NCBI GenBank assembly: GCA_008638215.1
Contig: VTPN01000005.1
Location: 1 to 51,454 of the forward strand
Length of the DNA stretch: 51,454 nucleotides
From: Pelagibacteraceae bacterium
GTDB taxonomy: Bacteria; Pseudomonadota; Alphaproteobacteria; HIMB59
Direction of reading: 5' to 3'
Under the pieces are notes generated by a model, which was not told the DNA's origin, did not search any database, and saw only the letters and a list, made by a program, of their open reading frames with translations. Of this stretch, positions 4,394 through 23,536 are shown in pieces. Position 1 is the first letter of the stretch; each line of letters opens with the position of its first letter. The translations under genes and the position numbers were made by a program.

Positions 4394-4394
4394 G

Positions 4395-5375
4395 ATGAAA
4401 ATTTGTATTTATGGGGCGGGAGCTATTGGCGGCTATTTAGGTGCCAAACTCACGGAAATTGGTGCAGATGTAACCCTTATTGCGCGAGGACCACATTACG
4501 AAGCTATTCGTCAAGACGGATTAAGACTTCGAAAAGACGGAAAAGAATTGGTTGTTTATCCTCGATGTGTGGATACGGCCGAAAAAGCAGGGAAGCAAGA
4601 TTATATTTTCGTGACTCTAAAGGCACACTCTGTTCCAGGGTGTTTAGATGCTTTTGAAGTTTTAATGAAAGATGACACATCTTTTGTTTGGGGAGTGAAT
4701 GGTATCCCTTGGTGGTATTTTCATAATCACGAAAATCCAGAATACAAAGATAAGAGAGTTACTTCTGTTGATCCAGACGGCAGTCAATGGGATCGCATAG
4801 GTCCTGAAAAAATTATTGGTTGTATTGTCAATCCCGCATCTGAGGTTATCAAGCCGGGTGTTATTCAACATTTAGAAGGGGACAAATTTCAGTTAGGCGA
4901 AATTAACGGAGAGGATACAGATAGAATAAAAAAATTATCGACCACTTTAGAGAAGGCTGGCTTCCAAGCTCCTATTCGCCCAAACATCAAAGGAGATATT
5001 TGGCTAAAGTTATTTGGAAACCTTTCTTTAAACCCTATCAGCTCTTTAACAACTTCTACCTTGGTTAAAATATGTAGTGATCAAGAAGTGAGAAATGTTG
5101 TTAAAAATATGATGATCGAAGCACATGAAATTTCAAAAAACTTAGGCATCGACAAACCTTTTGATGTTGAAAGAAGAATAGAAGCAGCTAAAGCTGTAGG
5201 AGAACATAAAACCTCCATGCTACAGGATCTAGAAAGAGACCGTCCTATGGAAATTGATGCTTTAGTTTCATCAGTGCAGGAACTTGGAAGAATTACCAAG
5301 GTTCCCACACCAACAATTGATACTGTTTTAGCTTTAGTAAAGTTGCGCGCTAAAGAAGCAAAGCTTTATAAATAA
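4395..5375 (+). CDS. Ketopantoate reductase (PanE/ApbA) family protein
   Basis: A 326-residue NAD(P)H-dependent 2-oxoacid reductase. The N-terminal Rossmann motif GAGAIGGYLGAKL is at residues 7-19. It is followed by VTLKAHS and a C-terminal helical domain with GDIWLKLFGNLSLNPISSLT, which contains the catalytic-Lys region of PanE enzymes. PanE reduces 2-dehydropantoate to pantoate. However, the gene starts 1 bp after a serine-glyoxylate-type aminotransferase, which would yield hydroxypyruvate or another 2-oxoacid, so reduction of that product is a plausible alternative. Its stop lies 1 bp from the convergent sucD stop. Confidence 0.8.
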   Translation: MKICIYGAGAIGGYLGAKLTEIGADVTLIARGPHYEAIRQDGLRLRKDGKELVVYPRCVDTAEKAGKQDYIFVTLKAHSVPGCLDAFEVLMKDDTSFVWGVNGIPWWYFHNHENPEYKDKRVTSVDPDGSQWDRIGPEKIIGCIVNPASEVIKPGVIQHLEGDKFQLGEINGEDTDRIKKLSTTLEKAGFQAPIRPNIKGDIWLKLFGNLSLNPISSLTTSTLVKICSDQEVRNVVKNMMIEAHEISKNLGIDKPFDVERRIEAAKAVGEHKTSMLQDLERDRPMEIDALVSSVQELGRITKVPTPTIDTVLALVKLRAKEAKLYK

Positions 5376-5376
5376 A

Positions 5377-6249
5377 TTAACCTAAAGCTCTTTGGATCGT
5401 CTCACCTAACTTAGCGGGTGATTTTGAAATATGAACTCCTGCATCTTCAAGTGCATTAAACTTAGACTCAGCAGTTCCTTTTCCACCAGAGATAATCGCT
5501 CCAGCATGACCCATTCTTTTACCAGCAGGAGCACTCGCGCCCGCAATAAAAGAAGCCACTGGTTTTTTAATTGAAGAGTTTTTAATGAATTCTGCTGCTT
5601 CTTCTTCCGCAGTTCCTCCAATTTCACCAATCATAATTATACCTTCGGTCTCAGGATCTTTTAAAAACAAGTCTAAACAGTCGATAAAGTTAGTGCCATT
5701 GATAGGATCTCCACCGATACCAATACATGTTGATTGACCAAGGCCCACCGCAGAGGTCTGAGCCACTGCCTCATAAGTTAGAGTTCCAGAACGACTCACA
5801 ACACCAATTTTTCCTTTTTGGTGAATATGTCCAGGCATAATGCCTATTTTACATTCGTCTGGTGTAATAATACCTGGGCAGTTAGGTCCAATAAGTCTTG
5901 AATTAGAATTTTCTAACTTTCTTTTTACTTGCATCATATCTAAAACTGGAACACCTTCGGTGATACAGACAATCAGTTCCATCTGGGCATCGATTGCTTC
6001 AATTATTGCTCCTGCTGCAAATGGAGGAGGGACGTAGATTACAGTGGCATTAGCTTCTGTATTCTCTTTTGCCTCTTTTACAGTGTTAAAGACAGGTAGG
6101 CCTAAATGTTCTTGGCCACCTTTTTTAGGTGTTACACCACCGACCATTTGAGTACCATATTTAATAGCCTGTTCAGAATGAAATGTACCTTGAGCGCCTG
6201 TGAAGCCTTGGCAAATTACTTTAGTTTCTTTATTTATTAATACTGACAT
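5377..6249 (-). CDS. sucD: Succinyl-CoA synthetase alpha subunit
   Basis: A 290-residue alpha subunit of the TCA-cycle succinate-CoA ligase. It matches E. coli SucD almost throughout: [20 protein letters not shown] at the N-terminal CoA-binding domain, [10 protein letters not shown], and the phosphohistidine motif [10 protein letters not shown] with His248. This is ordinary SucD rather than malate-CoA ligase MtkB as far as can be read. The gene follows sucC with a 10-bp gap on the minus strand. Its end is 1 bp from panE, leaving no room for a terminator between the convergent genes. Confidence 0.96.
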
Positions 6250-6259
6250 AATTACTCCT

Positions 6260-7447
6260 TTAACTCAAAGCACCGACAGCTTTTTGAGCCGCGTCTTCTA
6301 AATTATCTGCTGAAATAATAGCTAGACCTGATTTATTGAGAATTTCTTTACCTAATTCAACATTTGTTCCTTCAAGTCTAACAACAAGAGGAACTTGAAT
6401 TGATAATTCTTTGGCTGCAGCTACCACACCTTCAGCAATGATATCACATTTCATAATTCCACCGAAAATATTTACTAAAATTACTTTCACATTAGGATCT
6501 TGCAAAATGATTGAGAAGGCCTTTGCTACTCTTTCCTTTGTAGCTCCTCCACCAACATCTAGAAAGTTAGCAGGGCTTCCTCCATGAAGTTGGATAATAT
6601 CCATAGTGCCCATCGCTAGACCTGCACCATTGACCATACATCCAATACTTCCATCTAACTTCACATAATTTAACTCATGTTTAGAGGCCTCGATTTCAGC
6701 AGGATCTTCTTCTGTTTCGTCTCGCATTTCTGCAATATCTTTGTGTTTATAAAGAGCATTATCATCAATCGATACTTTGGCATCTAAGGCGAGGAAGTTT
6801 CCCTCTCCAGTTAAAACAAAAGGATTGACTTCGACCAGTGAAGCGTCTGTTGATAAAAAACTGGTATAAATTTTTTGAATTTGATCACAAAAATCAGCAG
6901 ACTGATCTGCAGTAATTTGCAAACCTTGAACTAGTCGATCTAAGCTTGGTTGATCTATGCTTTTATCACCAGGAACATTCACAGTAATAATTTTTTCAGG
7001 TTCTTTTTCTGCTACCTCTTCAATTTCCATTCCTCCTTCAGTAGAAGCAATAATGGAGATGGAGGAGGTGGATCGATCAACTAGCATGCTCAGATAGTAT
7101 TCTTTTTTAATATCGCAGCCTTCTTCAATATAAAGGCGATTAACAACTTTACCGTCTGGTCCAGTTTGTTTTGTAACTAGTGTTTTGCCGAGCATTTTTT
7201 TTGCATTTTCTTTTGCTTCTTCTTTAGAAAAACAAACCCGAACTCCACCTTTATCATCGCCGCTATCTTTAAATTTTCCTGCCCCTCTACCTCCTGCATG
7301 GATTTGTGATTTCACCACCATGACAGGTGTTTGAATAGAGTCTACCGCAGAGTCTATTTCATTATCGTTTAGAACTGGGTTACCAGCCAAAACTCTTACA
7401 TCATTATTTTTAAGCAACATTTTTGCTTGGTACTCATGTAAGTTCAT
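6260..7447 (-). CDS. sucC: Succinyl-CoA synthetase beta subunit
   Basis: A 395-residue ATP-grasp beta subunit that pairs with SucD to interconvert succinyl-CoA and succinate with nucleotide triphosphate formation. Visible features are [12 protein letters not shown] at the N-terminus, the nucleotide-binding [11 protein letters not shown], the EVNPFVL motif and the C-terminal [11 protein letters not shown] and [11 protein letters not shown]. Length is normal. Its ATG overlaps the stop of the upstream quinone oxidoreductase by 4 bp, so qor, sucC and sucD form one coupled operon on the minus strand. Confidence 0.96.
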
Positions 7448-8592: not shown

Positions 8593-9570
8593 ATGACTTT
8601 AATAAAAAAAATCAGTCTAGTTCTAGTTTCTCTCTCACTTGTAGCTGTTAGTTCAGTTTCTTCTGCGAAGCCTTTTGAGCCGAAGAAGCCAATTGAACTT
8701 ATTATTCCAGCTGGACAAGGCGGAGGTGCTGACGAGATTGCACGTTTAGTTCAAGGTGTTATTGAAAAAAATGACTACGCTTCAAAGCCAGTGATTCCAA
8801 TCAACAAACAAGGTGGTTCTGGTGGTGAGGCAATGACATATGTTAAGAAAAAAGCTGGTGATGAGCACACACTCATGATCACTCTTAACAACGTTCTTAC
8901 AACTCCAACTAACCAACCCGAATTAGGAATTGATTTCTTTAATGATTTCACTCCTCTTGCAAGACTTATCACTGATACTTTCTTAGTATGGATTGCAACT
9001 GAAGGTAAAAATACTCAAGGTGTAGAAACTTTTGATGACTTTATTGCGCTAGCAAAACAAGGGAACCTTGTTGCTGGTGGAACAGGAAGTATGTCAGAAG
9101 ATGAACTTCTACTTGGTATGATGAGAGGTCAATTTGGATTTGATGCAAAGTATGTTCCATATTCTGGTGGTGGTGCTGTTGCTAAAGGTCTAGTTGGCGG
9201 TGAGTCAGACTTCACTTTAAACAACCCTTCTGAGCAAATGGGTTTCTATCAATCAGGTGATTCAAAAGCTTTAGTTATGATGACCCCTGAAAGAAATTCT
9301 GCTTTCCCTGAGGTTCCATCTTCATATGAGCTTGGATATCCAGATCTTGAATACTACATGATGAGAGCATTCATGGCTCCTGCTGGTATTGATGCAGAAG
9401 TTGAAAAGTACTACACAGGACTTCTTCACACTGTTTATTCTGATAACGAGTTCCAAACTTTCAATATCGACGACGGAAAGTTAATGAGCTGGTTGGAAGG
9501 TTTTGGTCTTAAAGATTTCTTAGCTATCGAATACGAGAAGCACGCAGAAATTATTAAGAACTTTAATTAA
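8593..9570 (+). CDS. tctC: Tripartite tricarboxylate transporter substrate-binding protein (TctC family)
   Basis: A 325-residue periplasmic solute-binding protein of a TTT transporter. A signal peptide covers about residues 1-25, with hydrophobic ISLVLVSLSLVAVS and likely cleavage near SSA-KP. The mature start KPIELIIPAGQGGGADEIAR is the family's ligand-loop signature. The ATG at 8593 follows AGGAGGAATAAAT. tctB and tctA follow with short gaps, so all three parts of the carrier are present. TTT binding proteins bind many carboxylates, so the ligand cannot be read directly. Linkage to a formyl-CoA transferase gene suggests a small organic acid such as oxalate or a 2-hydroxy acid. Confidence 0.92.
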   Translation: MTLIKKISLVLVSLSLVAVSSVSSAKPFEPKKPIELIIPAGQGGGADEIARLVQGVIEKNDYASKPVIPINKQGGSGGEAMTYVKKKAGDEHTLMITLNNVLTTPTNQPELGIDFFNDFTPLARLITDTFLVWIATEGKNTQGVETFDDFIALAKQGNLVAGGTGSMSEDELLLGMMRGQFGFDAKYVPYSGGGAVAKGLVGGESDFTLNNPSEQMGFYQSGDSKALVMMTPERNSAFPEVPSSYELGYPDLEYYMMRAFMAPAGIDAEVEKYYTGLLHTVYSDNEFQTFNIDDGKLMSWLEGFGLKDFLAIEYEKHAEIIKNFN

Positions 9571-9590: not shown

Positions 9591-10112
9591 ATGAGTTTAG
9601 TGTCTAAATTTACTGTAAAAAAAGCAGAAATCACTGTTGCAGTGATTTTAGCGCTGAGCTCGCTTGCTCTTATGATTAAGAGTATGGAGAACAGGATCAC
9701 TTGGAACACAGAAGAGAATATGGGTGCAGGATTTTTGCCATTCTATCTTTCTCTTGGAATGTTGATTTGTTGCGTGTTAGTGATTATCAATTTCTTCTTA
9801 AAAAGAACTCCTCAATCAAAAGATGAAAGTCCTTTTATAGACCCTGAAGCCTTTAAATTTGTTTCGGTTACGTTGATATCGCTTATAGTTTTAGTTTTTG
9901 CGATAGGATATCTTGGTATCTATTTTTCTCTAATTTTCTTTTTAGCTTTTTATCTTCGATACTTTAGCGAAAAGAGTGTGTTATTTATAACTCTCTTTTC
10001 ACTTATCACGCCAGTTTTAACTTTTTTATTTTTTGAGTGGTTATTGAAAATTCCTTTGCCACAAGGAATATCAGAGCCATTATTTTACCCAGTTTACGAC
10101 TTTATGTATTAA
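9591..10112 (+). CDS. tctB: TTT transporter small membrane subunit (TctB family)
   Basis: A 173-residue integral membrane protein with about four or five hydrophobic segments, including EITVAVILALSSLALMI, FYLSLGMLICCVLVIINFF, a long FVSVTLISLIVLVFAIGYLG region, and VLFITLFSLITPVLTFLFF. The segment MGAGFLPFYLSL corresponds to the conserved GPGFFP-type motif of TctB. This poorly conserved subunit works with TctA to move the ligand delivered by TctC, using an ion gradient. It lies 20 bp after tctC with an AGGAGC ribosome-binding site. Confidence 0.9.
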   Translation: MSLVSKFTVKKAEITVAVILALSSLALMIKSMENRITWNTEENMGAGFLPFYLSLGMLICCVLVIINFFLKRTPQSKDESPFIDPEAFKFVSVTLISLIVLVFAIGYLGIYFSLIFFLAFYLRYFSEKSVLFITLFSLITPVLTFLFFEWLLKIPLPQGISEPLFYPVYDFMY

Positions 10113-10145: not shown

Positions 10146-11660
10146 ATGGAAGTTACAGCATTATTACTACAAGGTATATTTACTGCATTTGAACCACTTA
10201 ACTTAGGTTTATTAATTTTTGGATGCTTGGTAGGCTTATTTGTTGGAGCTATGCCGGGATTAGGTTCCGTTAATGGAGTTGCCATACTAATTCCAATTAC
10301 ATTTATTGTTCCACCTACAGCCGCAATTATTTTCTTAGCTGCTGTTTATTATGGAGCTATGTACGGCGGCGCGATCAGTTCAGTGATGCTTGGCATACCG
10401 GGCGCTTCTACGGCTGTTGCGACTGTATTCGATGGAAGACCTTTAGCTGTAAAAGGAGAAGCGATGACTGCCTTGACGGCTGCCGCTGTTGGATCTTTTG
10501 TTGGTGGTACTGTTTCAGTTATTTTATTTACACTTTTCGCACCACCTCTTGCTGAAGTAGCTTTAAGATTTAACGCACCTGAAACTTTTGCTCTAATGGT
10601 CATGGCGTTTGCCACATTTGTTGGATTGGGTGGAGACGATATTCCTAAAACTGTATTTTCAATTTTAATTGGATTAGCTTTATCAACTATTGGATTAGAT
10701 CTCATTACTGGTAAACCCAGACTAATTTTCTTCGGCATGCCAGGATTTTTACATGGCATCAATTTCTTAGTTCTTGCCATCGGTATTTACGGTATTGGAG
10801 AGATGCTCTGGACCCTTGAAGAGACAAAAGGAAAAGTTCAGATGTCTAAACTTTCCGTAAATATGAAAGAAGTAGGCAAAGCATTAGGCGCTCTTAAGAA
10901 AACTTTTTTGGCCATGAACATTGGCTCATTCCTTGGTTTTTTCGTTGGTATTTTACCAGCTGCCGGCGCAACCCCTGCTTCTTTGATGTCTTATGGAATC
11001 ACAAAGCAATTATCAAAAAATTCATCTGAATTTGGTCATGGTGCAGTAGCAGGAGTAGTTGCCCCAGAGACTGCGAACAACTCAGCTAGTACAGGAAGTA
11101 TGTTGCCCATGTTAACGCTTGGTATCCCAGGTTCTCCAACTACTGCTATTTTGTTAGGTGGCATGATACTTTGGGGCCTAACTCCTGGACCTCTTTTGTT
11201 TACTCAAGAGCCTGAATTTGTTTGGGGTTTAATTGGAAGTTTATATATTGCTAATTTCTTTACTTTGGTACTTAACATTGCATTAATCCCAGCTTTCCTA
11301 ATGGTTTTAAGGATTCCTTTTGCTATCTTAGCCCCTGTTATATTTGTTCTTTGTGTTACAGGAGGTTATGCACCTACGCAGAGTCTCCATGATGTATGGT
11401 TAATGCTATTATTTGGCTTTGGAGGATATGTTTTAAGAAAGCTAGATTATCCAGTCGCTCCTGCCGTATTATCTATTGTTTTAGGTCCTTTAGCTGAAAA
11501 TGCATTAAGGCAATCATTAATTCTTTCAGATGGAAGTATGGGAATTTTCTTTGATTTTACTGCTAAGCCTATTGCTGCTGTGATTATGTACATTGCAATT
11601 GTTCTGGTATTGATGCCAGCCTTCGGACCCATCTACAGAAAGCTATTTAAAAAAGCTTAA
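10146..11660 (+). CDS. tctA: TTT transporter large membrane subunit (TctA family)
   Basis: A 504-residue, roughly 12-helix permease that forms the translocation path. Characteristic motifs are VGAMPGLGSVNGVAILIPIT near residue 30, YGAMYGGAISSVMLGIPGAS shortly after, and the repeat-like PAAGATPASLM and APETANNSASTGSMLPMLTLG in the second half, reflecting the internal duplication of the family. It follows tctB by 33 bp. The GntR regulator gene begins 10 bp downstream, so regulator and transporter are probably on one transcript. Confidence 0.95.
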   Translation: MEVTALLLQGIFTAFEPLNLGLLIFGCLVGLFVGAMPGLGSVNGVAILIPITFIVPPTAAIIFLAAVYYGAMYGGAISSVMLGIPGASTAVATVFDGRPLAVKGEAMTALTAAAVGSFVGGTVSVILFTLFAPPLAEVALRFNAPETFALMVMAFATFVGLGGDDIPKTVFSILIGLALSTIGLDLITGKPRLIFFGMPGFLHGINFLVLAIGIYGIGEMLWTLEETKGKVQMSKLSVNMKEVGKALGALKKTFLAMNIGSFLGFFVGILPAAGATPASLMSYGITKQLSKNSSEFGHGAVAGVVAPETANNSASTGSMLPMLTLGIPGSPTTAILLGGMILWGLTPGPLLFTQEPEFVWGLIGSLYIANFFTLVLNIALIPAFLMVLRIPFAILAPVIFVLCVTGGYAPTQSLHDVWLMLLFGFGGYVLRKLDYPVAPAVLSIVLGPLAENALRQSLILSDGSMGIFFDFTAKPIAAVIMYIAIVLVLMPAFGPIYRKLFKKA

Positions 11661-12391: not shown

Positions 12392-14068
12392 ATGTCTACA
12401 GGAACTAATGAACAAATGATTACTGGCGGTGAGCTAGTAGCAAAAGCTCTCAAAGCTGAGGGCGTCGAAGTAATTTACACCCTATGTGGTGGTCATATTA
12501 TTGATATTTATAATGGTTGTTTAAACGAAGGAATTAAGATTATTGATGTAAGACACGAAGAAGTGGCTTCACATGCTGCCGATGGCTATGCAAGAATGAC
12601 TGGAAAACCAGGATGTGCAGTTGTAACTGCTGGACCAGGCACGACCCATGCTATAACGGGTGTAGCTAATGCTTTTAGAGCTGAGATCCCTATGTTGTTG
12701 ATTGGTGGACAAAGTTCACTAACTCAGCATAAAATGGGCTCACTTCAAGATCTTCCTCACGTTGACATGATGCAACCAATTACAAAATTTGCAGCTACTG
12801 TGATGTCTACTGAAAGATGTGCTGATATGGTATCGATGGCGTTTAGAGAAACTAGAAATGGTTCTTTTGGACCATCTTTTCTTGAAATCCCAAGAGATAT
12901 CTTAGATTCATCTATCCCTTTAAGTAAAGCGGTTATCCCACAAACAGGAAAATATAGTGCCTCCTCTAAAACTCTCGCTGATCCTGTGGATGTTCAAAAA
13001 GCTGCTGACATTATTTCTAAAGCTGAAAGACCATGTGTACTTCTTGGTCAGCAAGTTTGGACAAGTCAATCAACCCAAGATGCAGTAGATTTCGTAAGAA
13101 ATATGGATATTCCTGCTTACCTTAATGGTTCAGCACGAGGTTCATTACCTCCTGGAGATCCTCACCATTTTCATAGAACTAGAAGAAATGCTTTTACTAA
13201 ATCTGATTGTATAATAATTGTTGGTACTCCATTTGACTTTAGAATGGGATACGGAAAAAGACTGAATCCTAATGCAACTGTTATCCAAATTGATATGGAT
13301 TATAGAACAGTTGGAAAAAATAGAGATATTTCTCTTGGTTTAGTTGGACATATCGGAACAACCCTAAAGGCTATTTCAGAAGCTGGTTCAAAAAAAGATA
13401 GATCTGATTGGTTTAAGGAATTAAGAGCGGGTGAAGAAGCAGCTCTTGAGAAGTTAATGCCAACATTTACTACTGATAAATCACCAATTAGTCCTTACAG
13501 AGTTGCTTGGGAATTAAACGAATTCTTAAATGATGATACTATCTATATCGGTGATGGTGGTGACGTTGTTACTATTAGTGCACAAGCGGTACAGCCGAGA
13601 CAACCGGGTGCTTGGATGGACCCAGGACCTCTTGGTACATTAGGTGTAGGCGTACCTTATGCCCTTGCAGCTAAGATTGCCGCTCCTGAAAAAGAAGTAT
13701 TACTCTATTGTGGTGATGGAGCATTCTCTATGACCGGTATGGACTTTGAGGCATTTGTTAGACATAAAGCCCCAGTTCTGACTGTCATCGGGAATAACTC
13801 AGCTCAAAACCAAATTCGTTTTGGTCAAATCATGAAGTACGGCGAAGATAAAGGTAACGTAGGAAACTTATTAGGTGATGTTAACTTCGATGAGTTTGCT
13901 AAAATTTTCGGTGGTCATGGTGAAGCTGTTAGAGAAGCCAAAGATATTCAACCAGCCCTTCAAAGAGCAAGAGAAGCGGTTAAGTCAGGCATTCCTGCAA
14001 TCGTAAATATTTGGGTTGATAAAGAAGAATTTGCACCTGGTACTAAAAACCAGACTATGTACAAATAA
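12392..14068 (+). CDS. Thiamine-diphosphate enzyme of the acetolactate synthase / 2-hydroxyacyl-CoA lyase / oxalyl-CoA decarboxylase superfamily
   Basis: A 558-residue three-domain ThDP enzyme. The N-terminal PYR domain carries the activating glutamate Glu56 in RHEEVASHAADGYAR. The C-terminal PP domain has GDG at 441-443 and NN at 468-469 for Mg-diphosphate binding. Its neighbour is a formyl-CoA transferase, as in oxalate degradation (oxc-frc). However, the Tyr-Glu pair that marks oxalyl-CoA decarboxylase is replaced by Leu118-Gln119 in MGSLQDLPHVD. That pattern is closer to 2-hydroxyacyl-CoA lyase and acetolactate synthase. Glu56 argues against glyoxylate carboligase, which lacks it. Cleavage of an acyl-CoA to formyl-CoA is inferred. 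The start follows GAGAGG. Confidence 0.8.
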   Translation: MSTGTNEQMITGGELVAKALKAEGVEVIYTLCGGHIIDIYNGCLNEGIKIIDVRHEEVASHAADGYARMTGKPGCAVVTAGPGTTHAITGVANAFRAEIPMLLIGGQSSLTQHKMGSLQDLPHVDMMQPITKFAATVMSTERCADMVSMAFRETRNGSFGPSFLEIPRDILDSSIPLSKAVIPQTGKYSASSKTLADPVDVQKAADIISKAERPCVLLGQQVWTSQSTQDAVDFVRNMDIPAYLNGSARGSLPPGDPHHFHRTRRNAFTKSDCIIIVGTPFDFRMGYGKRLNPNATVIQIDMDYRTVGKNRDISLGLVGHIGTTLKAISEAGSKKDRSDWFKELRAGEEAALEKLMPTFTTDKSPISPYRVAWELNEFLNDDTIYIGDGGDVVTISAQAVQPRQPGAWMDPGPLGTLGVGVPYALAAKIAAPEKEVLLYCGDGAFSMTGMDFEAFVRHKAPVLTVIGNNSAQNQIRFGQIMKYGEDKGNVGNLLGDVNFDEFAKIFGGHGEAVREAKDIQPALQRAREAVKSGIPAIVNIWVDKEEFAPGTKNQTMYK

Positions 14069-15349: not shown

Positions 15350-16267
15350 ATGAAAATTATACTTATGGGACAACAGGCATTTGGTAAAAGTGCTTTAGAA
15401 AAATTTCACACAGGAACTGATCATGAGGTTGTTGCTGTTTACTGCGCACCCGACAAAGAAGGCAAACCAATTGACCCTGTCAAAGAATATGCTCAAAGTG
15501 TAGGTCTTCCAGTTTATCAGCCATCAAATTTTAAAGATCAAGAAGTATTAGATCAAATCAAATCTCATGATGCCGATCTATGCGTCATGGCTTATGTTAT
15601 TATTTTTGTACCCGAGGCTGCTAGAGATATTCCTAAACACGGATCAATTTGCTTTCACCCATCTCTTCTTCCTTTACATAGAGGCCCAAGCTCTATTAAT
15701 TGGCCCATTATTTGGGGTTCAGAGAAGACTGGCTTGACCATTTTTTATCCTAATGATGGTTTAGATGAGGGTGAAATTTTACTTCAAAAGGAAGTTGAAA
15801 TTAGCCCAGATGATACCTTGGGAGATGTTTATTTTTCAAAGATTTTTCCTTTAGGAGTAGATGCTTGTGTTGAGGCTGCAGATTTAATTGCTGCAGGAAA
15901 CGCTCCAAGAATTGCCCAAGATGATACTAAGGCTACTTATGAATCTTGGTGTAAAAAAGCTGACGCTCGAATTGATTGGAAAAAACCTGGAAGAGAAATT
16001 TATAACTTAATTAGAGGCTGTAATCCGCAACCGGGAGCTTGGGCAGAATTCATGGGAGATGAATTTACTTTCCTTGACACTAAGTTTATTGACGAACAAA
16101 GTGCAGAACATTTTCCAGGACAAATTATTTCCATCAATGCCGAAAATGTTCGAATAGCTGTTAAAGGCGGTTTCATTGAAGTTTCAAGATTTAAGTCAGA
16201 TCAAGGTAAACTTTTTGTAAAAGATATGAATACAGCAGTGTTTACAGAGGGCGATTTATTCTCATAA
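15350..16267 (+). CDS. 10-formyltetrahydrofolate hydrolase/transferase-like protein (ALDH1L1 N-terminal domain type)
   Basis: A 305-residue formyltransferase-fold protein equivalent to the N-terminal hydrolase domain of eukaryotic 10-formyl-THF dehydrogenase, without the carrier and aldehyde dehydrogenase domains. Shared features are the MKIILMGQQAFG start, HPSLLPLHRGPSSINW with catalytic His103, NDGLDEGEILLQKE with Asp139, and the C-terminal FMT-like domain with IRGCNPQPGAW. It is also related to methionyl-tRNA formyltransferase, but the wording of these motifs favours the ALDH1L1 type. It sits 24 bp after frc behind a GGGAG ribosome-binding site. It probably handles the one-carbon unit released from formyl-CoA, by formyl-THF hydrolysis or by formyl transfer. 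Confidence 0.82.
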   Translation: MKIILMGQQAFGKSALEKFHTGTDHEVVAVYCAPDKEGKPIDPVKEYAQSVGLPVYQPSNFKDQEVLDQIKSHDADLCVMAYVIIFVPEAARDIPKHGSICFHPSLLPLHRGPSSINWPIIWGSEKTGLTIFYPNDGLDEGEILLQKEVEISPDDTLGDVYFSKIFPLGVDACVEAADLIAAGNAPRIAQDDTKATYESWCKKADARIDWKKPGREIYNLIRGCNPQPGAWAEFMGDEFTFLDTKFIDEQSAEHFPGQIISINAENVRIAVKGGFIEVSRFKSDQGKLFVKDMNTAVFTEGDLFS

Positions 16268-16276: not shown

Positions 16277-16771
16277 GTGGCTACCAAACAAAAACACTCA
16301 GCTAAATTTTTAAGCTTTATAGTCTATTTTGTAGTTCTATTTCTATTATGGTACATACTATCAGGATACTTAAAGCCTCTTTTATTATTCTTTGGTTTAA
16401 TTAGCGTTCTATTTGTCAGTTGGATGTCTTATAGAGCGAGAGCTATAGACAGCGATACTTTTCCCTTAAAACTTTTATTACGATTACCTTTTTATTGGTT
16501 ATGGCTGACGAAAGAGATAGTAAAGTCTGGCCTAAGCACAACAAAAATAATTTGGAGTAACAATTATTCACCTGAACTCATTAAAATTAAAGCATCACAA
16601 AAAAATTCAACGGGTATCGCTAATTATGCGAATGCAATTACATTAACACCTGGTACGGTCACTATCGAAGTTGAAAAAAATGATTTACTTGTTCATGCTT
16701 TGAGTAAGGAATTATCTAAAGATTTACAGTCTGGCGAAATGGATCGATTCATTACAGGACTGGACAAATGA
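16277..16771 (+). CDS. mrpE: Mrp-type cation/proton antiporter subunit E
   Basis: A 164-residue membrane protein with two or three N-terminal helices (LSFIVYFVVLFLLWYILS, LLLFFGLISVLFVSW, a LPFYWLWL segment) and a cytosolic C-terminal domain with the MrpE signature ANAITLTPGTVTIEV. It starts with GTG at 16277, only 9 bp after the formyl-THF hydrolase-like gene, so the antiporter operon may be read through from the catabolic genes. Its end overlaps mrpF by 4 bp. Mrp complexes exchange Na+ or K+ for protons across the inner membrane. Confidence 0.92.
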   Translation: MATKQKHSAKFLSFIVYFVVLFLLWYILSGYLKPLLLFFGLISVLFVSWMSYRARAIDSDTFPLKLLLRLPFYWLWLTKEIVKSGLSTTKIIWSNNYSPELIKIKASQKNSTGIANYANAITLTPGTVTIEVEKNDLLVHALSKELSKDLQSGEMDRFITGLDK

Positions 16772-17034
16772 TTTTTTTTGCTGCACTAAGCGTTCTGGCA
16801 ATTGCAATTATTCTTTGCATTATTAGAGCGGTAAAAGGTCCAACGCCTTTTGATAGAATTTTATCGATCTCCAGCATTGGAACAATCATAGCTCTTGGAA
16901 TTGCAATCCATGGATTTGCCTTTCAAAGACCCGAATTTGTCGATATTTCGCTGATGTATGTTTTGTTAAATTTCCTTGGAACTATTGCAATCCTTCGGTT
17001 TTATAAAATTAAAGGAAAAAAAATTAATGGATAA
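16768..17034 (+). CDS. mrpF: Mrp-type antiporter subunit F
   Basis: An 88-residue protein with three predicted helices and the family motif KGPTPFDRILSISSIGT, followed by PEFVDISLMYVLLNFLGTIAI. Length and motif match MrpF/PhaF. It overlaps mrpE by 4 bp (ATGA) and mrpG by 8 bp, consistent with translational coupling and fixed stoichiometry. Confidence 0.93.
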   Translation: MIFFAALSVLAIAIILCIIRAVKGPTPFDRILSISSIGTIIALGIAIHGFAFQRPEFVDISLMYVLLNFLGTIAILRFYKIKGKKING

Positions 17035-17341
17035 TTTTGTAAATATTCTTTCTATGATTTCTTTGGTTTTGGGTTCTTTTTTTATCTTTTCTGGAAGTTT
17101 GGGTTTGTTAAAATTACCAGATTTGTTCGGCAGAATTCATGCTGCGGGATTAATTGATACATTAGGTTCGGGTTTTATAGTTTTATCATTAATTCTTTAC
17201 TCTGGATTTTCTCTAGTAAGTTTTAAGCTTTTATTGATCCCATTGTTTTTATTATTTACAAGTCCTGTATCTGGTCATGCTATTGCTTTGTTTGCATATG
17301 AGTCTGGATTAAAACCTAAAACAAAAGTTAACAAAAAATGA
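17027..17341 (+). CDS. mrpG: Mrp-type antiporter subunit G
   Basis: A 104-residue protein with three hydrophobic segments. The motif GLLKLPDLFGRIHAAGLIDTLG is diagnostic of MrpG/PhaG. I chose the ATG at 17027, which overlaps mrpF by 8 bp; an upstream in-frame start would extend it into mrpF without any matching family sequence. The next gene overlaps by 4 bp. Confidence 0.93.
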   Translation: MDNFVNILSMISLVLGSFFIFSGSLGLLKLPDLFGRIHAAGLIDTLGSGFIVLSLILYSGFSLVSFKLLLIPLFLLFTSPVSGHAIALFAYESGLKPKTKVNKK

Positions 17342-17901
17342 ATTTTCTTCTTATAAACTTTTTTCTAATTTCAATTCTGTTAATCACAACTTTTTTTATA
17401 TTTAAAAGCACTTCTTTAATAGGAATAGTTGCATTAACGGGCGCTTTTACTCTTGTTTGTGCTGCTATTTATGTAAATTTAGATGCCGTAGATGTTGCTT
17501 TTACTGAGGCGGCTGTCGGCTCAGGAATATCGACTATCTTGATGGTAATGGCTGTAGCAAAATTACCTGAGGGCAAAATAAAACCTTTAGTTAATTTGTT
17601 CCCAAGTCTTATCATTTCAGTTTGTATTGTCATCATTTTAATGGTTATAATTTCAAATCTTCCATTGTTGGGTGACCCTAATGCACCTATTCATTTACAT
17701 GTTACACCAGAGTATATAAAAGAGAGTGAATCATTTTTTCATATTCCAAATGTAGTTACCAATATTTTAGCTAGCTACCGGGGTTTTGATACTTTAGGAG
17801 AAACTATTGTTATTTTTACAGCAGGTTTGGGAGTAATTGCTCTTTTAACAGGCAATACTCTTAATCGAAAAACAAAATTTACCAAGAAGTTAAAAAAATA
17901 A
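17338..17901 (+). CDS. Mrp antiporter subunit: MrpA C-terminal (MbhD/DUF4040 plus MbhE-like) protein
   Basis: A 187-residue membrane protein corresponding to the C-terminal part of MrpA, here encoded separately. The N-terminal half carries the DUF4040/MbhD pattern (IVALTGAFTLVCAAIYVNLD, then AVDVAFTEAAVGSG). The C-terminal half has the MbhE-like NVVTNILASYRGFDTLGET and a last helix. In classical Mrp operons these segments are fused to the large NuoL-like MrpA. In split types they stand alone, as in membrane hydrogenase (Mbh) clusters. Overlaps with mrpG (4 bp) and mrpB (1 bp) place it firmly in the operon. Confidence 0.85.
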   Translation: MNFLLINFFLISILLITTFFIFKSTSLIGIVALTGAFTLVCAAIYVNLDAVDVAFTEAAVGSGISTILMVMAVAKLPEGKIKPLVNLFPSLIISVCIVIILMVIISNLPLLGDPNAPIHLHVTPEYIKESESFFHIPNVVTNILASYRGFDTLGETIVIFTAGLGVIALLTGNTLNRKTKFTKKLKK

Positions 17902-18338
17902 TGCAAGAGAAAATATCAACTAGTCCTATTTTTAATATTGTAAGTAGAATTTTATTCGCTCCCATTATTATTTTTGGTTTATATGTTCAATTTCATGGTG
18001 ACTACGGTCCTGGAGGAGGCTTTCAGGCTGGGGTCATTATTGCCGCTGCATTTATTTTATACTCTATGATTTTTGGATTGAAAAATGGGGAGACTTTAGT
18101 TCCTGTTAAAATTAATAGATATTTAATGTGCGTTGGAGTTCTTTTATATGCTGGAGTGGGCTTGGTTTCTTTATTTTTAAATGGAAAATACTTAGACTAT
18201 AACGTGTTATCTTCAGATCCATCTGGCGGTCAACATTTAGGAATTATACTCGTAGAACTGGGAGTGGGGATTACTGTTGCAACAGTAATGATCGCTCTTT
18301 ATCACTCATTTGCTTCATTTGGGGATAGCAATGACTGA
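17901..18338 (+). CDS. mrpB: Mrp-type antiporter subunit B
   Basis: A 145-residue protein with four predicted helices and the MrpB signature GLYVQFHGDYGPGGGFQAGVI near residue 30. The GQHLGIILVELGVGITVATVM segment near the C-terminus is also typical. The initiation codon shares its first base with the last base of the preceding stop. Its end overlaps mrpC by 8 bp. Confidence 0.94.
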   Translation: MQEKISTSPIFNIVSRILFAPIIIFGLYVQFHGDYGPGGGFQAGVIIAAAFILYSMIFGLKNGETLVPVKINRYLMCVGVLLYAGVGLVSLFLNGKYLDYNVLSSDPSGGQHLGIILVELGVGITVATVMIALYHSFASFGDSND

Positions 18339-18693
18339 TTTTCTCTATTTTTGGAACCACTTTGCTTTTATTTTACTGATGGTAGGGGGGTTATTTATAA
18401 TTATCACTAGCCAAAATTATATAAAAAAAATTGTTGGTTTAGCCATATTTCAAACTTCTGTGTTCGTGTTTTTTGTATCTCTTGCAAAAATCATCGATGG
18501 AACAGCTCCAATTTTGATGAAAGTTGAAGCAATTTATTCAAACCCACTTCCGCATGTTTTAATTCTTACTGCTATTGTAGTTGGAGTCGCTACTTCTGCT
18601 TTAGGTCTAGCGCTCGTATTACAAATTTACAAAAATTATAACACTATTGAAGAAAAAGAAATTGAGGCAGAGGAGCTCAAGTCCGAAAGATAG
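18331..18693 (+). CDS. mrpC: Mrp-type antiporter subunit C (NuoK-like)
   Basis: A 120-residue, three-helix NuoK homologue (ILLMVGGLFIIITSQNYIKK, GLAIFQTSVFVFFVSLAKI, then VLILTAIVVGVATSALGLAL). The ITAIVVG-like segment is the NuoK/MrpC signature. The ATG at 18331 overlaps mrpB by 8 bp; an upstream in-frame TTG at 18310 would add seven residues unlike the family. The C-terminus is charged (EEKEIEAEELKSER). Confidence 0.92.
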   Translation: MTDFLYFWNHFAFILLMVGGLFIIITSQNYIKKIVGLAIFQTSVFVFFVSLAKIIDGTAPILMKVEAIYSNPLPHVLILTAIVVGVATSALGLALVLQIYKNYNTIEEKEIEAEELKSER

Positions 18694-18695
18694 AG

Positions 18696-20189
18696 ATGAA
18701 TTTTTTAATTGATGATGCTCCTGCTTTAGTTGTAATTCTCCCTTTAATTGTATCTGCAATTATTGCTTTTATACCTTCTTCTCGATGGCCATGGATTATT
18801 TCAATGATAACCCTAATTGGTCATCTTTTTATTTCTTTTGAACTCCTTTCTATGGTTAAAAAAACAGGAGTAATATTATATGAGTTTGGAAATTGGCAGC
18901 CACCCTGGGGCATTGCATTTAAAATTGATGGCGTAAATATTGGATTACAAATAATTTTCTCGATTTTTGTTTTAATAACAACTTTTTATTCAAGGAAAAT
19001 TTTTCTTTCTGAAATTCATCCTGACGATACAGGAAAAACTTATTCTCTTTGGCTTTTAGCTATAGGAAGTTTAAATGGAATAATTTTAACTAATGATATT
19101 TTTAATCTTTTTGTATTTTTAGAAATATCTGCTCTGTCATCTATATCTTTAATTGCATTGGGAGCAGGCATGAATAGAAGAGCTCTTTTGGCCGCTTTCA
19201 ACTATCTGATTATAGGAGCAATAGGAGCAACTTTTTATGTAATTGGGGTAGGATTTGCCTATTCAATGACTGGAACGTTGAATATGTCTGATTTAGTTGT
19301 TCAATTATCACAGTACTCTTCAGGCCAATTAGCAATATTTGCCGGAATGTCCTTTATGTTAATCGGACTGATGGTTAAATCAGCAGTTTTCCCGCTACAT
19401 TTATGGCTTCCAGCTGCCTATAGTTATGCGCCTTCAGCAGTTTCCACTCTTTTTGCAGCCTTAGCGACTAAAGCTATTTTATATTTTTTTGTTCGCCTAA
19501 TTTATGAAGTTTTCAGAATATATGACCATTATTTAGTTATATTTTTAGATTATGTTTTAATGCCTCTTTCCGTCACTGCAATTTTTGTAGGTACTGTAAT
19601 AGCTATCTATCAAGAAGATATAAAAAAACTCCTGGCATTCTCCTCTATTGCTCAAATTGGCTATATAACTCTTGCGTTTAGCTTGAATGAGCAAAGCGGT
19701 ATTACCGCAGGCTTTATCCATATTTTTAATCACGCATTAATCAAAGGAGGTCTATTTATGGCAATAGGATATTTTGCAATAGTTTCTCAAGATAGAGTAA
19801 CTTTGTCTTCTATTAGTGGATACGGTCAAAAATATCCAATTACTTCTTTTGCATTATTAATTTGTGGTGTTTCTTTAATTGGAATTCCGCTTACAAATGG
19901 ATTTGTTTCAAAGTTATATTTATTTCAAGCGCTTTATTTCAACCAAATGTTTATAACGATTGCGCTTGTTGCAATCAGCTCGGCACTTGCTGTTATTTAT
20001 TTTTGGAAAATTATAGAAAGATTGTGGTTTTCAACAACTACCGTAAAAGTTGCGCCCGAGGATCCAGCAATATATATCCCATTATGGATAATTGCTATAT
20101 CGATTATCGTATTTGGAATTTTCTCTGCTCCAATTATTGAATTAGCTACAATGGCATCAAGTGACTTATTTGGAGCAATTTCAAATTGA
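18696..20189 (+). CDS. mrpD: Mrp-type antiporter subunit D (proton-conducting, NuoL/M/N family), copy 1
   Basis: A 497-residue protein of about 14 helices. The ion-path residues of the family are present: Glu143 in NLFVFLEISALSS, Lys228 in MVKSAVFPLHLWLP and Lys259 in AALATKAI, plus FNHALIKGGLFM in the second half. It is one of three such subunits in this operon. It begins 2 bp after mrpC, and its stop overlaps the next gene's TTG start by 4 bp. Confidence 0.92.
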   Translation: MNFLIDDAPALVVILPLIVSAIIAFIPSSRWPWIISMITLIGHLFISFELLSMVKKTGVILYEFGNWQPPWGIAFKIDGVNIGLQIIFSIFVLITTFYSRKIFLSEIHPDDTGKTYSLWLLAIGSLNGIILTNDIFNLFVFLEISALSSISLIALGAGMNRRALLAAFNYLIIGAIGATFYVIGVGFAYSMTGTLNMSDLVVQLSQYSSGQLAIFAGMSFMLIGLMVKSAVFPLHLWLPAAYSYAPSAVSTLFAALATKAILYFFVRLIYEVFRIYDHYLVIFLDYVLMPLSVTAIFVGTVIAIYQEDIKKLLAFSSIAQIGYITLAFSLNEQSGITAGFIHIFNHALIKGGLFMAIGYFAIVSQDRVTLSSISGYGQKYPITSFALLICGVSLIGIPLTNGFVSKLYLFQALYFNQMFITIALVAISSALAVIYFWKIIERLWFSTTTVKVAPEDPAIYIPLWIIAISIIVFGIFSAPIIELATMASSDLFGAISN

Positions 20190-21637
20190 GTAACTCTTCC
20201 TTGATTATACTTGGACTATTAGTTCCATTGATCGCAGCTTTAGGCTCATTTGTTTTTCAAAAAAATATCAATTTACGTGACTCATTTGGTGTTATTGGAG
20301 GCATAATTACTTTTATTATCAGTTTAATTATATTTGATGGTATTAAAAATTTTCAAGAATTTTCAATATCCTTATTCCCTCTTATTCAAGGTGTAGAGTT
20401 CACATTTAGAATTACCCCTTTGGGTTCAATTTTTAGTCTTGTTGCTTCCTCATTGTGGATACTTGCTTCTATCTACACTATTGGATATATGCGTGGTGCC
20501 GGAGAAGTTAATCAAACTCGTTTTGTAATTTTTTATTCAATTGCAATTCATGCAGCCTTAGCAATTGCTTGGTCAGGTAATTTATTAGTGCTATTTATTT
20601 TTTATGAAATTTTAACTTTTTCTACTTTTCCTTTAGTAGGGCACAAACAAAACGCTGAGTCTCAAGCTGCGGGAAGAGTTTATCTCTCAATTCTTGTAGG
20701 AACCTCTTTAATGTTGTTTTTACCTGCAATTTTTTGGATTTGGTTTCAAACTGGTACGCTAGATTTCAAGTCAGGTGGCATACTTGAAGGTAAATTTCCA
20801 ACAGAGTATTTATCATTTCTTGTGGCCCTTTTGGTATTTGGCATAGGAAAAGCTGCTATAATGCCAATTCATCGTTGGTTACCAGCTGCAATGGTTGCTC
20901 CCACTCCCGTTTCAGCTTTGCTTCATGCGGTAGCTGTTGTGAAAGCAGGAGTTTTTAGCTTCCTAGTTGTAGTTGTTTATATTATTGGTCCAGAATATCT
21001 TTTTGAAAGCAAGGCCTCAAATTGGTTAATTTGGTTAGCTTCATTTACAATTTTAGCTTCAAGTATTATTGCCATAAGTAAAGATGATTTAAAAGCTAGA
21101 TTGGCTTATTCAACTATAAGCCAACTTTCATATATTATTTTAGGCGCCGCCCTTGCAACTAGCTTTGCAATTAAAGGTGCTTCATTTCATATTATAACCC
21201 ATGCGATTGGAAAAATTACATTATTCTTTTGTGCAGGAGCTATCTATGTCACTGCCCATGTTAAAAAAATAAGTGAACTGAATGGTCTTGGATATAGAAC
21301 TCCTTTGATTTTCTTTGCTTATACTTTAGGAGCATTGTCAATAATTGGCGTTCCTCCATTTGTTGGATCATGGAGTAAATTTTATCTAATCTTAGGTTCT
21401 CTAGAAGCTGATTATTTATATGTCGCAATAATTTTGGGAATCTCTTCACTATTGAATATTTATTATTTATTAGAACCTGTCTTTATTGGTTTTAGGAAAA
21501 AATTGACAAAAGATATTCACCTTACTCATGCCCCATTAGCTGTCTGGCCCCCTGTTATAACCGGATTAGGCTGTTTTGCATTATTCTTTTTTGCTAATTA
21601 CTTTATAGAAATTATTAATGGAGTTTTATTTATATGA
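20186..21637 (+). CDS. Mrp-type antiporter subunit D-like (NuoL/M/N family), copy 2
   Basis: A 483-residue membrane protein with a TTG start overlapping the previous stop. Ion-path residues are kept: Glu141 in FIFYEILTFSTFPLVG, a lysine in FGIGKAAIMPIHRWLPAAM, and another in THAIGKITLFF. IHRWLPAAMVAPTPVSALLH is more like NuoM or NuoL wording than copy 1. It probably replaces the antiporter half of MrpA, whose C-terminal part is encoded separately at 17338. It ends in a 4-bp overlap with the small membrane gene at 21634. Confidence 0.88.
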   Translation: MSNSSLIILGLLVPLIAALGSFVFQKNINLRDSFGVIGGIITFIISLIIFDGIKNFQEFSISLFPLIQGVEFTFRITPLGSIFSLVASSLWILASIYTIGYMRGAGEVNQTRFVIFYSIAIHAALAIAWSGNLLVLFIFYEILTFSTFPLVGHKQNAESQAAGRVYLSILVGTSLMLFLPAIFWIWFQTGTLDFKSGGILEGKFPTEYLSFLVALLVFGIGKAAIMPIHRWLPAAMVAPTPVSALLHAVAVVKAGVFSFLVVVVYIIGPEYLFESKASNWLIWLASFTILASSIIAISKDDLKARLAYSTISQLSYIILGAALATSFAIKGASFHIITHAIGKITLFFCAGAIYVTAHVKKISELNGLGYRTPLIFFAYTLGALSIIGVPPFVGSWSKFYLILGSLEADYLYVAIILGISSLLNIYYLLEPVFIGFRKKLTKDIHLTHAPLAVWPPVITGLGCFALFFFANYFIEIINGVLFI

Positions 21638-21864
21638 GTAAAAATAATTTAAAAACTTTCGCAAAATATTTTATTAAAATAATCATATTGATTTCAATTT
21701 TGCTAGTTGGGATTGATTTTACTTTTCATCGTCATGCATATTTTGCCCTAGAAGAGATATATGGATTCCCAGCTTTTTTTGGATTTGTTAGCTTTATTTT
21801 TATCGTTCTGGTCGGAAAGTGGCTGCGGAAGATATTGATGAGAAAAGAGGATTACTATGACTAA
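21634..21864 (+). CDS. Small two-helix membrane protein within the Mrp operon
   Basis: A 76-residue protein I cannot assign to a named family. It has two hydrophobic segments (residues about 13-27, IKIIILISILLVGID; about 45-63, FFGFVSFIFIVLVGKW), separated by a short loop with TFHRHAYFALEEIYGFPAF, and a charged tail RKILMRKEDYYD. Its 4-bp overlap with the upstream antiporter gene and 8-bp overlap with the downstream one show that it is translated as part of the operon. An accessory or assembly subunit of the complex is the natural guess, from context only. Confidence 0.75.
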   Translation: MSKNNLKTFAKYFIKIIILISILLVGIDFTFHRHAYFALEEIYGFPAFFGFVSFIFIVLVGKWLRKILMRKEDYYD

Positions 21865-23536
21865 TATGATCCCAGGTCTATGGATGATTATTACGTCCAT
21901 ATTTTTACCCTTAATTCCTCAATATTTGAGACAACCAGTCATGTTACTTTCTGTTGCTGCTTCAGCCTCATCTCTGTTAAATGGATTTGGGGTGTTTGTT
22001 GAATGGGAAATTTTAGGAAACACTCTTATACTTTATCAAGCCGATAACCTAACTCTACCTTTTGCTCTAATTTTTCATTTAGCCTCTGTCCTTATTATCA
22101 TTTATGCATGGCATAATAAAAATTTGATGGAAAACATGGCCACTTTGGCTTATGCGGGAGCTGCGATTGGCGCCTTACACGCAGGAGATTTTTTTAGTTT
22201 ATTTATTTGGATGGAATCCACTGCACTTACTTCAGCGTTTATTGTATTTGCTGGAAATACCCCATCTGCAAGATCATCTGCAATGCGTTATCTAATTATT
22301 CAAGTTTGTTCTGGAGTATTATTGCTTATTGGGGCTAGTTTGATGACATTACAAACTGGCAATTATTTATTAACAAAATTAGATCTATCAAATAATTTTG
22401 GAATATTTATATTTTTAGCATTTGGCATTAAAGCTGCTTTCCCATTACTTAATGGCTGGCTTCAAGACTCTTATCCGGAGTCCTCTCCAACTGGAACTGT
22501 TGCTCTTTCAGCCTTTACTACTAAACTTGCAATTTATGCTTTAGCCCGAACTTTTCCAGGAGTTGATACATTAATTTGGATAGGTGCCATCATGACTGTA
22601 TTTCCAGTTTTCTTCGCTGTCATCGAAAATGACTTAAGAAGAGTTCTATCATTTAGTTTGAATAATCAATTAGGTTTTATGGTTGTAGGAATTGGTATTG
22701 GTACAGAACTTTCTTTAAATGGAACTGTCGCCCATGCCTTTGTGCATATTATTTATAAAGCTTTGTTATTTATGAGTATGGGTGCTGTTTTACATCGAGT
22801 TGGAACGACAAAAGCTTCAGAACTCGGAGGTCTCTATAAGTATATGCCCTTTACTACTATATTTTGCATTATTGGTGCAATGTCAATTTCAGCATTCCCT
22901 TTATTTAGTGGTTTTGTAGCAAAATCTTTAATTATGTCAGCCTTGGGAGGGCAAGGGTTAATATTAATTTATTTTGTCCTTTTTTTTGCTTCTGCAGGTG
23001 TGCTGGAACATTCAGGTATAAAAATTCCTTACTTTGCATTTTTCGCACATGAAAGGAAAATGAAAGTTCAAGAGGCTCCATTTAATATGCTATTGGCAAT
23101 GGGTATCGCTGCATTTTTATGTATTGGTATAGGTATTTTCCCTAAATTCCTCTACTCAATCTTACCTTATTCTGTTGAGTATCAACCATACACTCTCGAT
23201 CATATTGTAAGTCAATTACAACTTTTAGTTTTTGCCATATTGGCTTTTTTATTTTTGGTTAAGTTTAGACTTTACCCATCTGAAATTAAATCTACCGTAT
23301 TAAATACTGACTGGTTTTATCGAAAAATGTTACTAGGAATTGGTAAGCCATTTTTTCAATCATTACATTTTATAACTCAAAAAATATATTTCATCCTCAA
23401 TCTACTTTTCGAATTCTTTATAGGAAAATCAAAAAAATTCGCTAACTTATCATACTTTAAAGTCACTACTCCTAGCTTTGCAGCAACAGTTTTAATTACG
23501 ATATTATTCGTTATGTTGATTTTGGCAGTAATTTAG
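21857..23536 (+). CDS. Mrp-type antiporter subunit D-like (NuoL/M/N family), copy 3
   Basis: A 559-residue membrane protein, longer than the other two copies because of a C-terminal extension (from about residue 440) with additional hydrophobic segments. Family residues remain: Glu120 in LFIWMESTALTSAF, a lysine in FGIKAAFPLLNGWLQDSYPE, TKLAIYALARTFPG, and HIIYKALLFMSMG. The SYPESSPTGTVALSAF segment corresponds to the usual PEAPxPVSA loop but is altered. It closes the operon. Its TAG interlocks with the chorismate mutase stop on the other strand in the tetranucleotide TTAG. Confidence 0.88.
   Translation: MTNMIPGLWMIITSIFLPLIPQYLRQPVMLLSVAASASSLLNGFGVFVEWEILGNTLILYQADNLTLPFALIFHLASVLIIIYAWHNKNLMENMATLAYAGAAIGALHAGDFFSLFIWMESTALTSAFIVFAGNTPSARSSAMRYLIIQVCSGVLLLIGASLMTLQTGNYLLTKLDLSNNFGIFIFLAFGIKAAFPLLNGWLQDSYPESSPTGTVALSAFTTKLAIYALARTFPGVDTLIWIGAIMTVFPVFFAVIENDLRRVLSFSLNNQLGFMVVGIGIGTELSLNGTVAHAFVHIIYKALLFMSMGAVLHRVGTTKASELGGLYKYMPFTTIFCIIGAMSISAFPLFSGFVAKSLIMSALGGQGLILIYFVLFFASAGVLEHSGIKIPYFAFFAHERKMKVQEAPFNMLLAMGIAAFLCIGIGIFPKFLYSILPYSVEYQPYTLDHIVSQLQLLVFAILAFLFLVKFRLYPSEIKSTVLNTDWFYRKMLLGIGKPFFQSLHFITQKIYFILNLLFEFFIGKSKKFANLSYFKVTTPSFAATVLITILFVMLILAVI

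Follow-up and report, generated by a model that had tools for sequence, protein, structure and literature searches.

An ALDH1L1-type formyl-transferase protein in oxalate operons of Proteobacteria and its candidate role between formyl-CoA and one-carbon folates

The window analysed here, a stretch of 51,454 nucleotides from a Pelagibacteraceae bacterium of the HIMB59 lineage (genome G000, a 1.23 Mb draft), carries an oxalate-catabolic operon whose seventh gene codes for a free-standing relative of the hydrolase domain of ALDH1L1/FDH, hereafter FTH. The family of FTH, its catalytic residues, its operon, its conservation, and its co-occurrence with the formyl-CoA:oxalate CoA-transferase Frc are established, and from them we infer its substrate, direction, and activity, the choice between a hydrolase and a transferase being beyond the reach of sequence and fold. 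The preferred reading, to which an even chance is given, is that FTH is a soluble and reversible formyl-CoA:tetrahydrofolate (THF; N10) formyltransferase that works within the oxalate-catabolic operon.

Identity and active site of FTH

The open reading frame and the two catalytic residues, His103 and Asp139, described in an earlier note on this DNA are real (Table 1). Specifically, the frame is intact, starts with ATG, spans 305 codons, begins 24 bases past the Frc stop codon, and has a purine-rich Shine-Dalgarno-like stretch directly 5' of it. Pfam assigns residues 1-161 to Formyl_trans_N and residues 202-287 to Formyl_trans_C and finds only these two domains in the polypeptide, without a carrier domain, an ALDH domain, or the enoyl-CoA-hydratase-like C-terminal domain. 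The earlier description of the protein as "single-domain" is therefore wrong in the number of Pfam domains, which are two, as in Fmt and in the whole ALDH1L1 hydrolase module.

Among solved structures, the top match of FTH is the hydrolase domain of zebrafish FDH (4qpd, 219 bits), accompanied by the corresponding rat (1s3i, 206 bits) and human (2bw0, 204 bits) domains, while E. coli Fmt reaches 134 bits, the remaining Fmt structures score lower, and ArnA scores ~90 bits. None of the curated NCBIfam cut-offs is reached, neither that of Fmt (TIGR00460, 165.9 versus 201.5 bits) nor those of ArnA (NF005998, 121 versus 777 bits) and PurU (TIGR00655, 24.3 versus 286 bits). In a thinned tree, which took in 39 of 75 FTH rows and 5 of 9 references, FTH and FDH stand apart from Fmt with a support of 100/100, which together with the structure scores bears out the claimed ALDH1L1-type affinity. 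In the same tree, FTH as a single clade without FDH is marginally rejected (p-AU 0.049), and FDH may be nested inside FTH. In a larger tree that includes HoxX and ArnA, the branches are very long, ArnA joins Fmt, and the two are drawn together inside FTH. An origin among nucleotide-sugar formyltransferases, the alternative named in the earlier note, finds no counterpart in these data: ArnA groups with Fmt, and no sugar-nucleotide operon is recognised among the annotated subset of FTH neighbours in relatives. A model of FTH predicted from 34 sequences has a mean pLDDT of 92.6; VIA-align ranks Fmt first (Z 35.3, versus 33.7 for FDH) and Foldseek ranks FDH first, and the fold was rejected as a discriminator between the two types because both fit the model about equally. 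The structural alignment of FTH with the HypX/HoxX N-terminal domain has ~17% identity.

His103 and Asp139 are invariant in 34/34 aligned relatives and in all 75 rows of a larger FTH alignment, from which near copies, rows of <45% identity, and rows of <240 aa were dropped. The positions equivalent to His106, Ser108, Arg114, Asp142, and Tyr200 of FDH are likewise retained in 75/75 rows. Conversely, the position equivalent to FDH residue 104 is Cys in 45 rows and Gln in 30, never Asn and never Ile, whereas the references have Asn in five Fmt proteins and ArnA, Ile in FDH, and Val in HoxX; in the FTH of the window, this residue, two before the catalytic His, is Cys101, as opposed to the Asn of amine formyltransferases. 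According to the accessible part of a study on zebrafish FDH, Asn at position 104 matters in amine formyltransferases, and the I104N substitution lowers the hydrolase activity of FDH to <10% (PMC4388273). P104 and P113 are common to FTH and C. necator HoxX and are not found in the Fmt and ArnA references, and S114 is also present in the C. necator protein; a HypX-like residue signature was nevertheless rejected, as A. aeolicus HypX has Asn at the S114 position.

Table 1. Genes of the operon and active-site codons of FTH in the window
Feature	Position	Strand	Basis
TctC, periplasmic binding protein	8593..9570	+	Pfam
TctB, small membrane subunit	9591..10112	+	Pfam
TctA, large membrane subunit of a tripartite tricarboxylate-type transporter	10146..11660	+	Pfam; operon conservation
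GntR/FCD-type regulator, 219 aa	11671..12330	+	Pfam
ThDP enzyme, 558 aa, in the oxalyl-CoA decarboxylase slot	12392..14068	+	TIGR03254 and structure matches
Frc, formyl-CoA:oxalate CoA-transferase, 415 aa	14078..15325	+	TIGR03253, 700 bits (cut-off 504)
FTH, 305 aa, Formyl_trans_N and Formyl_trans_C, free-standing ALDH1L1-hydrolase type	15350..16267	+	Pfam; structure-database matches
Cys101 codon, aligned with FDH Ile104	15650..15652	+	Alignment
His103 codon, catalytic (FDH His106); Ser105 (FDH Ser108) two codons on	15656..15658	+	Alignment
Asp139 codon, catalytic (FDH Asp142)	15764..15766	+	Alignment

The operon in the window and in relatives

The gene order in the window is TctC-TctB-TctA-GntR-ThDP enzyme-Frc-FTH, all on the plus strand, and the TctABC transporter is presumed to import oxalate or a related dicarboxylate. 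Frc, directly after which the earlier note had placed the gene, is genuine (Table 1), and its nearest solved relative is E. coli YfdW (545 bits). The ThDP enzyme falls outside canonical oxalyl-CoA decarboxylase (Oxc), scoring 247 bits with TIGR03254 against a cut-off of 739 bits, and among solved structures it comes closest to 2-hydroxyacyl-CoA lyases; at one related locus (L121), the same slot holds a true Oxc (989 bits). Across 30 Frc loci (L186-L215), a true Oxc adjoins Frc in 15, a relative of the window ThDP enzyme in 12, four of which belong to the window's own genus, and neither in 3. This family may represent a second, unnamed kind of oxalyl-CoA decarboxylase; alternatively, its members may be 2-hydroxyacyl-CoA lyases, which would alter the substrate of the pathway.

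FTH is found in 42 of the 52 genomes of the window's genus, the other ten being 50-79% complete, while in the rest of the order (110 genomes) the sole match is a distant one (32%, in G110) that behaves as Fmt. The formate-THF ligase Fhs is absent from the window near FTH, yet it is present elsewhere in 8/8 same-genus genomes searched, and formate dehydrogenase and FolD are also present in G000 and in G111, a second genome of the HIMB59 group. Directly after FTH, the window contains Na+/H+ antiporter genes (16277-23536, with an MnhE-like gene at 16277 and an MnhD-like gene at 21857), and in three earlier-branching relatives (L093-L095, 10923-12236) a gene of ~438 aa follows FTH, which in L093 is NhaD; the replacement of one Na+/H+ antiporter by another next to the oxalate genes suggests that ions are coupled to uptake or to decarboxylation, which consumes protons. 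At a distance of 25 kb from FTH, positions 41553-43985 code for an 810-aa dimethylglycine/sarcosine-dehydrogenase-like protein with DAO, FAO_M, GCV_T, and GCV_T_C domains; the tie between this dehydrogenase and FTH suggested in the earlier note finds no support.

The neighbourhood of FTH in relatives was mapped by tblastn, with Frc counted as adjacent when it lay on the strand of FTH at a distance of no more than 600 bases. Three sets were used: an even draw of Alphaproteobacteria (class sample), with 28 FTH-bearing genomes outside the genus and 4 same-genus genomes left out; 40 named loci, which exclude the same-genus loci L059-L096, L133, and L135 and form a biased set because the search was seeded with window peptides and the best 80 of 128 were kept; and 8 further FTH genomes from a phylum-wide draw (phylum sample). 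Frc adjoins FTH in 14/28 class-sample genomes (13 or 14 depending on G327, in which contig ends split the genes), in 25/40 named loci from the best 80 of 128 (one of these Frc proteins is only 36% identical and lies on the downstream side), and in 7/8 phylum-sample genomes. Fhs adjoins FTH in 12/28, in 27/40 (from the best 80 of 128), and in 0/8, respectively, and both genes are found beside FTH in 11/28, in 23/40 (from the best 80 of 128), and in 0/8. In the remaining 14 class-sample genomes FTH lies away from Frc, and 6 of the 28 have no Frc over the cut-off.

The association extends beyond adjacency. FTH and Frc are found together in 22/382 class-sample genomes outside the genus against 2.1 expected from 28 FTH and 29 Frc over the cut-off (hypergeometric p ~2e-24, uncorrected for genome size and lifestyle); counted by genus, 17 are shared against 1.7 expected, and counted by family, 15 are shared out of 17 with FTH and 20 with Frc. 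The map shows the two genes apart in 8 or 9 of the 22 genomes; inheritance of one operon therefore does not account for the whole association, and the coupling of FTH to formyl-CoA metabolism put forward in the earlier note gains support from both conserved adjacency and co-occurrence. The formyl-THF hydrolase PurU has the opposite distribution: it occurs in 93/386 class-sample genomes overall and in 0/28 of those with FTH (6.8 expected, P 3e-4), and in 4/7 Frc genomes without FTH versus 0/22 with both (p 0.0015). Counted by family the exclusion is weaker, with PurU in 1/17 FTH families (P 0.02), so that shared ancestry may account for part of the pattern. Among all FTH genomes searched, 5/38 carry PurU, and in four of them, from family f211, FTH adjoins Frc. 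G000 and G111 encode Fmt-like, PurN-like, and FTH proteins and lack PurU.

Several arrangements depart from that of the window. On a plasmid of Paracoccaceae strain La 6, oxc, frc, FTH, and fhs lie together, surrounded by genes annotated as pyruvate phosphate dikinase, PEP carboxylase (ppc), two sucCD-like pairs, serine hydroxymethyltransferase, glycerate dehydrogenase (hprA), folD, and a MetF-like gene, a set that we take to be a serine cycle for C1 assimilation, the entry point of which is 10-formyl-THF. FTH is annotated there as fmt_2, and many other FTH genes probably likewise bear the wrong label of methionyl-tRNA formyltransferase. In Nisaea, an Fhs-FTH pair is separate from a TPP-Frc pair; in L127, the neighbours of FTH are a class-III CoA-transferase and a ThDP enzyme, both diverged; and in L169 (G373, 3-7056), FTH follows a true Frc together with oxalate-oxidoreductase-like alpha and beta subunits, both under their cut-offs. 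L169 also has a ferredoxin-domain protein and a flavoprotein ahead of Frc and FTH, possibly forming a ferredoxin-dependent oxalate route.

In SAR116-type relatives (L123, L124, L126, L128, L129, L134), FTH stands beside a HemB-family gene, and on the longer contigs it is followed by genes of valine degradation (acyl-CoA dehydrogenase, 3-hydroxyisobutyryl-CoA hydrolase, and 3-hydroxyisobutyrate dehydrogenase), a context accounted for by neither a transferase nor a hydrolase. A universal-stress-protein gene of ~285 aa recurs in many of the operons, lying after Fhs in L105, L098, and strain La 6 (L217, 11677-12540) and after FTH in L122, and in the alphaproteobacterial family f99 (L168, 5761-7111; L167; L178) a pterin-4a-carbinolamine dehydratase gene is a second neighbour of folate/pterin type. 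Three candidates were rejected along the way: a 730-codon frame in G202 is not an FTH-Fhs fusion, the surplus lying upstream, in another frame within frc, and FTH having its normal end and 306 aa; the ~286-aa gene past Fhs (cluster c9) is not FolD, as Pfam identifies a universal stress protein; and the 859-aa gene past FTH in Nisaea is not a GcvT-type dehydrogenase, as its match is a nicotinamidase and covers part of the frame.

Proposed reaction and alternative explanations

In the proposed pathway, TctABC would import oxalate, Frc would move CoA from formyl-CoA onto it, the ThDP enzyme would decarboxylate the resulting oxalyl-CoA to formyl-CoA, and FTH, through His103, Ser105, and Asp139, would shuttle formyl between N10 of THF and the thiol of CoA. 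Such a reaction would follow the chemistry proposed for the ALDH1L1 N-domain and for HypX, with free CoA supplying the thiol. Forward, the carbon of oxalate would enter the C1-folate pool straight as 10-formyl-THF; in reverse, Fhs and FTH would convert formate and ATP to formyl-CoA and thereby prime the Frc cycle. Of the two formyl donors, formyl-CoA probably has the higher energy, and its conversion to 10-formyl-THF probably runs downhill.

A transferase, raised as a possibility in the earlier note, is preferred on two grounds: among the closest relatives of FTH, the chemistry consists in passing a formyl group to a pantetheine thiol, and the enzymes encoded next to FTH in conserved order make and use that formyl thioester in free form. 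Specifically, the accessible part of the FDH study reports that the isolated domain hydrolyses 10-formyl-THF only with beta-mercaptoethanol, at millimolar thiol, and suggests that this part belongs to the 4'-phosphopantetheine arm (PMC4388273). Formyl transfer onto that arm in full-length ALDH1L1 is described in the accessible text of a cryo-EM study (PMC8748788), and the homologous domain of HypX is proposed, in a source likewise accessible in part, to pass the formyl group from 10-formyl-THF to CoA, direct proof being lacking according to its authors (PMC6802093). The grouping of FTH with a domain that needs thiol when isolated, the absence of the amine-acceptor Asn at FDH position 104 in 75/75 FTH rows, the adjacency and co-occurrence of Frc, also where the genes are not adjacent, and the L127 and L169 variants all favour the transferase. 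Against it stand the predicted fold, which does not separate FDH from Fmt, the class-sample genomes with FTH away from Frc (14/28) or without Frc (6/28), and the SAR116-type FTH at the head of a valine-degradation set; moreover, if FTH drained formyl-CoA, the return of CoA to oxalate would need another route.

The exclusion of PurU also weighs against the transferase, since it matches an FTH that replaces PurU as a 10-formyl-THF hydrolase (deformylase), releasing formate and THF and balancing C1-folate during oxalate and formate metabolism. This explanation, which takes up the hydrolysis named first in the earlier note and is rather unlikely but the most serious of the rivals, agrees with the presence of PurU in 0/28 class-sample FTH genomes as compared with four of seven that have Frc without FTH, with the complement of G000 and G111, and with the in vitro cleavage of 10-formyl-THF by the isolated ALDH1L1 N-domain, although the accessible text makes that cleavage dependent on millimolar thiol (PMC4388273). 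It is disfavoured because Fhs, usually beside FTH in Alphaproteobacteria, would form with a plain hydrolase a futile, ATP-wasting cycle, and because draining 10-formyl-THF would be counterproductive in the C1-assimilation set of strain La 6; furthermore, PurU and FTH do coexist in 5/38 genomes, including the four of f211 with Frc next to FTH, and the exclusion by family is weak enough for shared ancestry to explain part of it. A sub-case of the transferase, improbable as the main role, would have FTH chiefly prime the cycle, with Fhs making 10-formyl-THF from formate and ATP and FTH passing the formyl group to CoA to start Frc. The order Frc, then FTH and Fhs, in 11/28 class-sample genomes and 23/40 named loci (best 80 of 128) and the separate Fhs-FTH pair of Nisaea are consistent with priming; on the other side, Fhs is beside FTH in none of the 8 phylum-sample genomes, and the reverse direction would need a pull, formyl-CoA being probably the higher-energy donor. 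The priming problem has been discussed in E. coli, where, in the accessible part of the source, it is solved by YfdE, an acetyl-CoA:oxalate CoA-transferase (PMC3720670).

It is less probable again that FTH formylates some other acceptor, whether protein, amino sugar, or metabolite, with the adjacency of Frc reflecting regulation only. The superfamily is shared with Fmt, ArnA, and PurN, and the neighbours in relatives without Frc are diverse (valine operon, pterin dehydratase, acyl-CoA dehydrogenase), as would fit such a role, but the Asn of amine formyltransferases is missing from every one of the 75 FTH rows, and the co-occurrence with Frc persists in genomes where the two genes are apart. 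A second methionyl-tRNA formyltransferase is highly improbable: the annotation in strain La 6, the closely similar fold, and the 166 bits with TIGR00460 would suit it, but this score is under the Fmt cut-off, the split between FTH and Fmt has a support of 100/100, and G000 has another Fmt-like gene, which does carry the Asn.

Significance and relation to known systems

FTH is a variant of the ALDH1L1-hydrolase kind of protein, and a formyl-CoA:THF activity, if demonstrated, would be new to the literature searched, in which, the HypX proposal aside, such a transferase is undescribed; this absence is weak evidence, most subscription papers lying outside the coverage. In the same literature, nothing was found on HIMB59 and oxalate, and no folate branch was found in the accessible part of a 2026 survey of oxalate pathways (PMC12927642). 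The wider proposal, held tentatively and at somewhat less than an even chance, is that a new activity joins oxalate catabolism to the folate C1 pool in many Proteobacteria, that with Fhs it provides an ATP-driven route from formate to formyl-CoA, and that a natural pantetheine formyl-thioester enzyme is the ancestor of the ALDH1L1 N-domain or has a common ancestor with it. Were this true, oxalate and any other source of formyl-CoA would be direct donors of C1-folate, or folate would be the primer of oxalate catabolism, with a bearing on oxalate use by abundant marine bacteria with genomes of 1.2-1.4 Mb; the need of the ALDH1L1 hydrolase domain for a thiol would gain an evolutionary frame, and synthetic formyl-CoA or formate pathways would gain a natural enzyme.

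Among known systems, the ALDH1L1/FDH hydrolase domain (4qpd, 1s3i, 2bw0) is the best whole-length match, with the same conserved catalytic residues and no Asn104, whereas FTH is free-standing, bacterial, encoded in oxalate operons, and has Cys or Gln in place of Ile104 of FDH. The N-terminal domain of HypX/HoxX (6j0p, 6j1f) shares the fold and retains the His and Asp but, unlike FTH, is fused to an enoyl-CoA-hydratase-like domain and has a role in hydrogenase assembly. Fmt has the same two-domain architecture and a nearly identical overall fold (Z ~35) and differs by the Asn at FDH position 104 in the five references and by its separate lineage. PurU, seldom found in one genome with FTH, might share its net reaction with FTH if FTH were a hydrolase, but its domain make-up is different and FTH scores only 24 bits with its model. 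Lastly, the oxc-frc operon of Oxalobacter and E. coli (yfdWU) shares with the window a true Frc and, in many relatives of the window operon, an Oxc in the adjoining slot, whereas the operon described here also includes FTH, often Fhs as well, and in the window holds a different ThDP enzyme in the decarboxylase slot.
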